Positions 5,638 through 11,029 of a stretch of 22,588 nucleotides of DNA are shown here, piece after piece; the first letter of the stretch is position 1, and each line of letters opens with the position of its first letter. The notes below the pieces were generated by a model. That model ran no database searches, was not told where the DNA came from, and saw only the letters and a program-made list of their open reading frames with translations. The DNA is from a virus. Both the position numbers and the translations under genes were made by a program. Location of the stretch: positions 1-22,588 of the IMG/VR virus record IMGVR_UViG_3300031885_000125. One strand, written 5' to 3'.

Positions 5638-6318
5638 ATGTTTTTCTTTTCCTACCATATAGGGGACTTCGTCTCCGCGACTCACCACCTAGATCTAGTC
5701 GAGGAGGCGATTTATCGTCGCCTTCTCGATCTGTATTACACGACCGAGAAGCCTCTCCCGGACGACGTTAAGGTTCTCGCCCGGGCGATACGCGCAAAAG
5801 GCGAGGAGGACGCGGTTAAGGCGATTCTCGAGGAGTTCTTTAAGTTATCCGACGGGGTCTGGAGACAGACTCGCGTCGACGAGGAGATCGCAAAGTATCG
5901 AGATAAGTCTCGCAAGGCTTCCGAATCGGCTTCGCATCGATGGAAAGATCCGAAGGGAAAGGAACCGCAAAGCGAACGCAAAGCGAACGCAAAGCGAACG
6001 CAAAGCGGAAAGGATCCGGACGGTATGCTAACCAATAACCAAGAACCAATAACCAAGAACCATAAACCAGTAAAGGGAAAGAGAGAGAGCTCCGCTCCCT
6101 CTCCTCTCTCTCCCTCGTTAATTATCCTCGACCCTCTCTGGAGTCCTTCGGCTGAATTGATTACAGAGGTCGCGGAGATAGCGACTGTCGACGAGAAGTT
6201 CGCTCGCGATTGTTCGATCGGATTCGCGGCTCACTACGTCGGGAGATCCTATAAGCCGACGGCGTTACGGTCGGCTCTGGTTAAGTGGGTCGATCGGGAG
6301 CGGAGGTTTAATCTATGA
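5638..6318 (+). CDS. DUF1376 replication protein (O-like initiator candidate)
   Basis: A 226-residue protein with an N-terminal DUF1376 domain (residues ~4-82: YHIGDFVSATHHLDLVEEA, YRRLLDLYYTTEKPLP, VWRQTRVDEEIAKYRDKS), found in phage replication proteins. A low-complexity linker (~90-150) is encoded by two arrays of direct repeats, followed by a compact C-terminal helical domain (~155-226, ELITEVAEIATVDEKFARDC ... GRSYKPTALRSALVKW) like the end of other phage replication proteins. This matches the lambda O arrangement, where the origin lies inside the initiator gene. It probably binds origin DNA and recruits replication proteins; no helicase or loader gene follows in the window. Its stop overlaps the next start as ATGA. 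Confidence 0.75.
   Translation: MFFFSYHIGDFVSATHHLDLVEEAIYRRLLDLYYTTEKPLPDDVKVLARAIRAKGEEDAVKAILEEFFKLSDGVWRQTRVDEEIAKYRDKSRKASESASHRWKDPKGKEPQSERKANAKRTQSGKDPDGMLTNNQEPITKNHKPVKGKRESSAPSPLSPSLIILDPLWSPSAELITEVAEIATVDEKFARDCSIGFAAHYVGRSYKPTALRSALVKWVDRERRFNL
5968..6007 (+). repeat. 11-bp iteron array inside the replication gene
   Basis: CAAAGCGAACG occurs three times in direct tandem (5968-5978, 5979-5989, 5990-6000) and again partially (CAAAGCG, 6001-6007). The 11-base unit is not a multiple of three, so each copy is read in a different frame (QSERKANAKRTQS). Conservation is therefore at the DNA level, as expected for protein-binding iterons. Confidence 0.85.
6030..6071 (+). repeat. 7-bp repeat array, AT-rich, candidate unwinding region
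   Basis: Six head-to-tail 7-base units: AACCAAT, AACCAAG, AACCAAT, AACCAAG, AACCATA, AACCAGT. The strand is markedly purine-rich after it (GTAAAGGGAAAGAGAGAGAG) and poor in GC relative to neighbours. Together with the 11-bp iterons 22 bases upstream this forms a likely replication origin of the lambda type (iterons then AT-rich segment). Confidence 0.75.
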
Positions 6319-8575: not shown

Positions 8576-9145
8576 GTGAACTTTATAGACTTACTCCTCG
8601 GGGGAGCCGGAGGCGGCATAATCGGGACGATCGGTTCGCTTGCTAACAAGTGGCAAGAGGCGAGATCCTCGCTCGCTCTTGCGAAAGAGAATAACGCTAA
8701 CAAGTGGCAAGAGGCGAGATCCTCGCTCGCTCTTGCGAAAGAGAATAACGCTCACGAGATAGCCTTAAAGGATCGCGAGTTCTCCCTGTTACAGTTAAAG
8801 CTCGGAAGCGAAGGTTATCTTAAGGAGCTAGAACGGGATATCGCCTTCGACAAGACCTCCGGAGATTCTCTTGTCGCGAGCATAGAGTCGGACGCGGCGG
8901 CTTATAGCGTCGTCGATACGAGTAAGGCTTCGCCGTGGCTTGTCCTCGTCGACGTTATCCGCGGTCTTATGCGACCCGGGTTAACGATCGGGTTAACGTC
9001 TTTAAACGGTTATCTCTCCGTCGTATTGCTCGGGAAGTTAACCGAGACAGCGGATCTCGGGAACCAGATTATCCTGTCGACAGCGACCCTCGCCGGAATG
9101 TCCGTCGCGTGGTGGTTCGGGGCGCGTAGTCATGCCAGCAAATAA
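8576..9145 (+). CDS. Holin (3-TM family) with internal duplication
   Basis: A 189-residue membrane protein resembling the three-TM holin family that carries a long cytoplasmic coiled linker. It has a glycine-rich first helix (residues ~3-22, IDLLLGGAGGGIIGTIGSL), a charged helical region (~24-105), a second hydrophobic region (~117-150, with RGLMRPGLTIGL) and a third (~162-182, ending WWFGAR). It forms the membrane lesion that starts lysis and works with the lysozyme whose start it overlaps by 14 bases. The start is GTG with AAAGGAG upstream. An 18-residue unit is duplicated exactly. Family assignment is by motif memory. Confidence 0.7.
   Translation: MNFIDLLLGGAGGGIIGTIGSLANKWQEARSSLALAKENNANKWQEARSSLALAKENNAHEIALKDREFSLLQLKLGSEGYLKELERDIAFDKTSGDSLVASIESDAAAYSVVDTSKASPWLVLVDVIRGLMRPGLTIGLTSLNGYLSVVLLGKLTETADLGNQIILSTATLAGMSVAWWFGARSHASK
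8642..8749 (+). repeat. Exact 54-bp tandem duplication in holin gene
   Basis: Two identical 54-base units (8642-8695 and 8696-8749) encode an 18-residue block (ANKWQEARSSLALAKENN) twice in frame within the coiled linker. No base differs between them, so the duplication is recent or maintained by slippage. Confidence 0.95.
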
Positions 9146-9932: not shown

Positions 9933-10148
9933 ATGAGACTCCGCGATTATATTGTCGAACAATCGAAAAAATTAAAGCTCGAAGTCGATCCTCGCTTCGT
10001 AGAGTCGGGACTTCTCCTTCGTTATGGCGGGACTTCTAACTTGTCCGCGAGAGAGTTTAATAAAGAGATCCGGCTCGTCGCGGAGATCTGTAAGACCTCG
10101 GACGGAGTCGCCTCTCTCGAGCGTTCCGCTCTGTCGTGGGGTCTTTAA
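9933..10148 (+). CDS. Unknown small protein (71 aa)
   Basis: A 71-residue protein (MRLRDYIVEQSKKLKLEVDP...) with helix-strand pattern and no recognised family. I start it at 9933, one base after the previous stop, rather than at the upstream in-frame ATG at 9888 that lies within the previous gene. Its TAA overlaps the next ATG (TAATG at 10146-10150), so it is coupled to the PP-loop gene and may work with it. Confidence 0.55.
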   Translation: MRLRDYIVEQSKKLKLEVDPRFVESGLLLRYGGTSNLSAREFNKEIRLVAEICKTSDGVASLERSALSWGL

Positions 10149-11029
10149 TGGGGAGAATAATCGCGTCGGATAGCGGGAACCTCGACCTCTTTATCGAATA
10201 CGATAAAAGACAAAAGAGGATAGTCTGTTATTCGGGAGGGCATAGTTCCGCGATCGTCGCGATCGAGGTCTGTCGTCGATACGGTTCGGAGAATGTCGTT
10301 CTCCTTAATCACGATATCGCGGAAAACGTCGAGGATCTTGATATTAAAAGATTTAAAAGAGAGGTCGCCGACTATCTCGGAAAGGAGATCGTATTCGCGA
10401 ATATACAGGATCTCGAGGGAGACGCTCTGCCGGATCAATTCGACGTCTGTATTAAGGCTGGAGCCTTTAAGGTTGGGAGCGGTTCGGAGTTATGTACGTC
10501 TCGTCTCAAGACGGAACCCTTTTACAAGTGGCTCTCGGAGAATACAGATCCGGCGAATACTGTTATTTATTACGGATTCGATCCGAAAGAGATCCGGCGG
10601 ATACAGAGGAGATCGGGGATCCTTGGGTCGATGGGATATCGGACAGACTATCCTCTCGCGTTATGGAAAGATCGGACGATCTTTAATACTGGAGAGATCG
10701 GAATCGATCCTCCTCTCGCGTATGGAAAATATAAACACGCGAATTGTAAAGGATGTTTAAAGGCGGGTCGCTTGCATTGGTTTATAACATATTGCGACCG
10801 ACCGGATCTTTTCGAGAAAGCGAAGCGAGCGGAGGACGAGATCGGATATACAATCTTAAACGGTCAGTCTATGGAGTCCCTCGAGCCTACCTTCCGGAAG
10901 TTACAAGAGGCGGGAGTCGAGGGAAACGAACATATAGGAGGCGTCTCTTTTTGGTCGCAAGTAAAAAGGAGCGGAGTTTTACTAGAACCAGACTCGGAGG
11001 ATCTTAAGCCTTGCGAGTGTGTTTTTTAA
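10148..11029 (+). CDS. PP-loop ATPase, PAPS reductase-like family
   Basis: A 293-residue member of the phosphoadenosine-phosphosulfate reductase / PP-loop superfamily. The adenine-nucleotide loop SGGHSS (residues 29-34 in CYSGGHSSAIVAIEV) is intact, followed by NVVLLNHDIAENVEDLD, the substrate-side motif GSELCTSRLKTEPFY and the C-terminal CKGCLKAGRLHWF with a CxxC. In this superfamily the loop activates a substrate with ATP before sulfur transfer or amidation; relatives include sulfate reductases and DndC-type DNA-sulfur proteins. Phage copies are common but their substrate is mostly unknown. I start it at 10148 (TAATG) rather than GTG at 10136. A sulfur or base-modification role is a hypothesis. 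Confidence 0.8.
   Translation: MGRIIASDSGNLDLFIEYDKRQKRIVCYSGGHSSAIVAIEVCRRYGSENVVLLNHDIAENVEDLDIKRFKREVADYLGKEIVFANIQDLEGDALPDQFDVCIKAGAFKVGSGSELCTSRLKTEPFYKWLSENTDPANTVIYYGFDPKEIRRIQRRSGILGSMGYRTDYPLALWKDRTIFNTGEIGIDPPLAYGKYKHANCKGCLKAGRLHWFITYCDRPDLFEKAKRAEDEIGYTILNGQSMESLEPTFRKLQEAGVEGNEHIGGVSFWSQVKRSGVLLEPDSEDLKPCECVF

Follow-up and report, generated by a model that had tools for sequence, protein, structure and literature searches.

Bacterial oriC regions combine DnaA boxes, which are bound as duplex DNA, with an adjacent short-step element, the DnaA-trio, that may be read in single-stranded form. In phage lambda, the origin repeats lie within the linker of the initiator gene O, and in Stx phages the O linker is lengthened by added iterons (PMC7466680). 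The Rac prophage of Escherichia coli K-12 has an active origin as well, oriJ (PMC3945230). Here we analyze 22,588 nucleotides of viral DNA (positions 1 to 22,588 of the IMG/VR record IMGVR_UViG_3300031885_000125; hereafter, the window) and propose, from sequence comparisons, that two tandem arrays in the linker of a DUF1376 gene are probably the core of a phage replication origin that resides in the gene for its own initiator.

Two tandem arrays in the linker of a DUF1376 gene

The DUF1376 gene (5638–6318, plus strand; 226 aa) is initiator-like by its Pfam and PHROGs matches, and the relatives of its product are primosomal proteins in PHROGs. Residues 3–85 (5644–5892, plus strand) match the DUF1376 profile (PF07120; E = 4e-26), and most of this domain is modeled by AlphaFold2 with a pLDDT of ~97, as helices with a two-strand wing. 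Comparison of the domain with PDB structures yielded weak matches, many of them to winged-helix domains and none with E < 0.001, and a sequence search of the PDB gave zero matches. We predict that the domain is a winged helix and propose that it binds iterons. At the other end of the protein, residues 167–223 (6136–6306, plus strand) make up a DnaT-like domain, a proposed helicase recruiter, whose match to PF17948 (DnaT DNA-binding domain) is marginal (25.6 bits, with a cut-off of 25); this profile matches one of 70 aligned relatives, namely the window itself. The linker between the two domains, in which both arrays are embedded, is predicted to be disordered (AlphaFold2 pLDDT ~50–59). Pfam and PHROGs searches recognized no helicase or loader gene downstream of the DUF1376 gene in the window.

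The upstream array (5968–6007, plus strand), delineated with Tandem Repeats Finder, comprises 3.6 perfect copies of the 11-bp unit CAAAGCGAACG, that is, full copies at 5968–5978, 5979–5989, and 5990–6000 and a partial copy at 6001–6007, which we propose to be iterons. It is followed, after a spacer of 22 bp (6008–6029, plus strand; read directly off the sequence), by six AACCANN heptamers (6030–6071, plus strand), in the order AACCAAT, AACCAAG, AACCAAT, AACCAAG, AACCATA, AACCAGT. This ACCA array, supported by synonymous shuffles, by comparison with relatives, and by CA density, is a proposed opening site or the site of a second binding mode. No other tandem repeat in the window scores as high as these two arrays. 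Directly 3′ of the heptamers lies a purine-rich stretch (6072–6089), which might form a hairpin with a pyrimidine arm (whole element, 6072–6115, plus strand; inverted-repeat arms 6074–6085 and 6104–6115, 12 nt, 92% pairing). The hairpin tendency after the array is weak across the family (mean z −0.53); the element is not generally conserved, its role is doubtful, and a conserved hairpin was dropped as a candidate on account of this weak signal. A sequence-only reading of the window had placed both arrays in the linker of this gene, with the coordinates, units, 22-base gap, six heptamers, and purine-rich stretch as given here, and direct inspection, Tandem Repeats Finder, and the domain borders bear it out on all these points.

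Arrays in DUF1376 relatives and in a sister family

An exact search of IMG/VR for four AACCANN units returned at least 120 stretches. Among the matches listed, the heptamer array lies within a same-strand DUF1376 ORF in 113 of 123 loci; most of the remaining ten fall at contig ends or in simple repeats of unrelated origin. Across the loci from this search the array is always in the sense orientation relative to the DUF1376 gene. In GTDB genomes, the bare heptamer falls within DUF1376 genes in 2 of 120 cases and elsewhere mostly represents a simple repeat; by itself, it is not diagnostic of these genes, and searching cellular genomes for the heptamer as a marker was rejected as unspecific.

We also picked 80 loci by the DUF1376-domain pattern alone; they are the loci whose domain is most similar to that of the window, so that close kin are over-represented, and together with the window, locus L002, and Rac YdaU they make up 83 scored genes. 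When an array is called significant if at most 1 of 100 synonymous shuffles reaches its score, 77 of the 83 genes have a significant tandem array, a count which, the loci being related to one another, does not equal the number of independent events. The best period is 7 bp in 57 genes, 6 in 15, 11 in 5, 14 in 3, 12 in 2, and 4 in one; most of the 83 genes have ACCA or AACA as the core, within the same disordered linker and with varying flanks, and the copy number of the ACCA array is mostly 4–6. In control ORFs from the same loci, 5 of 106 were significant, all five being antisense copies of DUF1376 arrays. The repeats thus recur in close relatives with the same gene, a comparison that the sequence-only reading had set beforehand as one of its refutation tests.

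Among 16 named phages, 12, including phages of Chlorobiaceae and Methylophilaceae, have a significant CCA-type array, and the array is not significant in Acinetobacter phage ZC3 and Vibrio phage 1.003.O. A cyanophage DUF1376 gene has a different 6-bp repeat, and the AACCAG array of Bordetella phage IFTN6 is explicable by its repetitive peptide alone. In genomes of Gammaproteobacteria and Pseudomonadota, 14 of 33 scorable DUF1376 genes are significant, 4 of these 14 with the canonical array; remote members of the family have CCA-like 6–7-bp variants or nothing, and one DUF1376 gene from a genome assigned to Bacillota contains CCAGTCC repeats, on a contig that is possibly misbinned. Our search of the literature, mostly of freely readable papers, found no report of DUF1376 origins and no phage report of the motif. 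The arrays, initially suggested to define a new iteron-initiator pair, form a widespread class and are not private to this phage.

The stretch between the DUF1376 domain and the ACCA array contains a significant repeat in 98 of 158 non-redundant genes, spaced in most of these 98 by 11 bp (61) or 21–24 bp (30), and folds better than shuffles, in line with palindromes. Sequence classes of this stretch, defined after looking, have the following counts compared with the synonymous null: GTTCAAC, 39 vs. 1.7; GCGAACGC, the class of relatives to which the window's 11-bp array belongs, 36 vs. 8.6; AACCCA, 29 vs. 6.4; CCCCCTA, 14 vs. 1.5; and CAGATC, 7 vs. 1.7. On the DUF1376-domain tree, the upstream classes cluster (47 changes vs. 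94 after shuffling) and the ACCA type requires just 10 changes (vs. 31), although clustering of labels on a tree could also come from shared descent alone and is no proof of co-recognition. Judged by these comparisons, the 11-bp array differs from one subfamily to another, and the ACCA array hardly changes. The initial view of two iteron arrays is accordingly amended, in that the two differ in behavior.

The ACCA array is common to at least eight unrelated C-terminal types. For this reason, and because DnaT takes 2 nt per subunit (PMC4132743), the DnaT-like C-terminus is unlikely to be the reader of the heptamers. In phages of Pseudomonas, Bordetella, Xanthomonas, Vibrio, and other hosts, repressor/cro/cII-like or other early genes precede the DUF1376 gene, and in many phages the next gene encodes an IstB-like ATPase, a helicase loader, a DnaB-type helicase, or a primase/helicase. 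In several named phages, the DUF1376 gene thus occupies the position of lambda O, which is likewise an early gene followed by a replication helicase or loader gene. In Vibrio phage 1.183.O, a CRISPR spacer is annotated inside the DUF1376 gene (L210:3361-3390), ~70 bp upstream of the ACCA array; this annotation probably represents linker repeats that were misread.

In the Rac prophage, ydaU-ydaV encode a DUF1376 protein followed by an ATP-binding protein, and the C-terminal half of YdaU matches PHROG 678 ("replication initiation O-like"; E = 2.5e-24). The ydaU gene (L123:3120-3977) has no ACCA array; its linker (L123:3500-3600) contains six TGTTNAA-type half-sites, several at 11–12-bp steps, a pattern that was chosen after looking and was reached in none of 1000 synonymous shuffles. 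We consider these half-sites a candidate site for oriJ.

Fold searches identify PF14297 (Lin1244/Lin1753 N-terminal) as a structural sister family of DUF1376. Among the PF14297 loci sampled (L393-L407 and L410-L432), an AAAGN-type array with 5-bp steps, or a close variant, follows the domain in all 15 genes from Bacillota, with the units AAAGT, AAAGA, and AAAGG, and 12 of the 15 are significant at 1/100 or better. In Bacteroidota, some PF14297 genes keep AAAGT and others have differing 5–6-bp repeats (8 of 19 significant); in Pseudomonadota, no PF14297 was found among 299 genomes. Genes of both families contain a short tandem repeat at the DNA level in the equivalent position, AAAGN in PF14297 and ACCA in DUF1376. 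In the few cases that separate domain from host, namely the Bacteroidota PF14297 genes and the single DUF1376 gene with CCAGTCC repeats, the type of array appears to track the initiator domain more closely than the host.

Selection on DNA and the proposed origin

Synonymous-codon shuffles within the DUF1376 gene, which keep the protein exactly, reached the scores of the two arrays (21.5 and 31.5) in none of 5000 trials, the shuffle maxima being 17.5 and 21.0, respectively. Moreover, CA/TG dinucleotides are strongly depleted in the window (observed/expected 0.36), yet nowhere in it is CA denser than in the heptamer array (6 within 41 bp vs. a genome frequency of 2.1%); selection on the DNA sequence is the simplest reading of CCA-based heptamers in a CA-poor window. 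It could be argued that selection acts on the peptide, such that the linker needs a flexible polar repeat which the DNA repeat merely follows: every observed peptide is polar and plausible as a linker, and a few arrays, such as AACCAG (peptide NQNQ; L196, L353, L356, and Bordetella IFTN6), do not significantly exceed synonymous shuffles. However, the 7-bp unit is no multiple of three, sixteen 6-bp ACCA arrays occupy all three reading frames (9, 5, and 2), and a single DNA core encodes wholly different peptides (TNNQEPITNNHKP, HQTPDTRHQTP, NKQETINNKQET, TKTKTNTN, DQDQDQ, PTPTPT). We therefore reject the peptide-level explanation, on the basis of the shuffles and the frames, as highly improbable: in most close relatives, the arrays are preserved as DNA and not as protein sequence, as had been claimed from the window alone. 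A neutral, slippage-driven repeat without function is also very unlikely. Cyanobacteria, Bacteroidota, and others do have similar heptamer arrays in places other than DUF1376 genes, most of them simple repeats, and some hexamer arrays are perfect, but neutrality fits poorly with the fixed position in the gene, a fixed core between varying flanks, a copy number held mostly at 4–6, the presence in phages of several bacterial phyla, and the absence from control ORFs.

Of the functional alternatives, the protein might bind its own gene or mRNA for control of its synthesis, or the C-rich, G-poor transcript might act in termination or translation. The invariant sense orientation and the predicted lack of structure in the G-poor array transcript are compatible with such an operator or RNA element; nevertheless, the orientation is explicable by coding, because antisense frames would yield hydrophobic peptides, the middle of a gene is an unusual place for an operator, and the helical spacing, the initiator gene, and the replication neighborhood fit an origin better, so that we regard regulation as unlikely. 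Somewhat less likely still is another cis-acting DNA site, for recombination, packaging, partition, or priming, that came to lie in the DUF1376 gene by chance. Short direct repeats are used in such sites too, and the recombination genes ERF and YqaJ are located immediately upstream of the DUF1376 gene in the window; across phages with differing neighbors, however, the arrays are tied to DUF1376 and PF14297 and not to recombination or terminase genes. A G-quadruplex on the opposite strand was discarded as not general, the AAACAA class being without GG runs.

Given that the arrays are real and are kept as DNA in most close relatives, in phages of several bacterial phyla, they most likely represent a lambda-style in-gene origin, of a type for which we found no description. 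When the same kind of test was applied to lambda O at longer periods, the annotated ori iterons 1–2 were recovered. Points that count against the origin reading are the missing ACCA array in Rac ydaU, whose prophage does have an active origin, the lack of a significant array in most remote DUF1376 genes, and the composition of the flanks. The lambda-origin architecture suggested initially holds for the direct repeats in the linker of an initiator gene, beyond coding need, and does not extend to an AT-rich flank or to the initiator family. No AT-rich unwinding element was seen beside the arrays (flanks ~52–58% AT vs. a gene mean of 52%); the ACCA array itself averages 64% AT and 5% G, and CACCAGA-type classes are not AT-rich. 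Furthermore, the N-terminus of the initiator is PF07120 instead of the lambda O (Phage_rep_O) family. On account of these two differences, we file the feature as a variant of the in-gene phage origin that stands outside the lambda ori family. In addition, the DUF1376 iterons are 11 bp apart, in contrast to 20–24 bp in lambda, and the second array, ACCA at 6–7 bp, has no counterpart there. To the DnaA boxes and DnaA-trio of oriC, the two-part DUF1376 arrangement bears a resemblance in the manner of working only: the step is 6–7 nt and not 3 nt, the sequence is unrelated, and no DnaA homology was found. GC skew, whose values are positive along the rightward block of genes, starting at ~3 kb, and do not switch near 6 kb, is uninformative as origin evidence in this window.

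In our best reading, the origin consists of subfamily-specific iterons and a conserved, nearly G-free CCA array. With lambda O (PMC7466680) as the model, the predicted winged-helix DUF1376 domain would bind the 11-bp iterons, which fall once on each turn of the helix, or the related palindromes of other family members, and the variable C-terminus would recruit the helicase or loader, often the product of the next gene in relatives. The adjacent ACCA array would be opened or read, with each 6–7-bp unit contacted by one molecule of a conserved factor; the simplest candidate for this factor is the DUF1376 protein, using a second mode of binding. We infer binding, melting, and origin activity as well as the reader of the ACCA array, which, because the C-termini vary, is most likely the DUF1376 domain or a conserved host factor. 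More tentatively, and with rather less confidence than in the origin itself, we suggest that the ACCA array could be a new kind of origin element: short-step (5–7 nt) and strand-biased, with a core set by the family of the initiator domain (ACCA in the case of DUF1376, AAAGN in that of PF14297), whatever the C-terminal domain and, for the most part, whatever the host phylum. The initiator domain would read this element as the strands open, and the fast-changing iterons beside it would give each phage its specificity. If the origin reading is correct, sequence alone would suffice to mark where replication probably starts in a large class of phages and prophages, and DUF1376 and its kin would gain a function as origin-binding initiators. 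Such loci would also provide a ready-made set of two-part origins for separating the variable specificity element from the conserved one and testing them, and the odd, low-complexity look of these linkers at the protein level would be explained.

Base composition and other features of the window

The CA/TG depletion is uniform along the entire window (1-22588), in which the observed/expected ratio is 1.64 for CG and 1.55 for TC/GA; GGCC is absent (37 expected) and GCGC occurs 14 times vs. 84. Among the loci first compared, leaving out L001, itself an excerpt of the window, the next-lowest CA/TG ratio is 0.87. The depletion is common to L392 (0.33; terminase segment 100% identical) and L381 (0.40; capsid 69% identical), and ten more distant capsid relatives, at 1.0–1.2, are without it. 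The window further contains a perfect 54-bp tandem duplication (8642-8752), which is in frame (18 residues) within the ORF at 8576-9145, and a PAPS-reductase-like gene at 10136-11029 (phrog_424; E = 1.5e-29).
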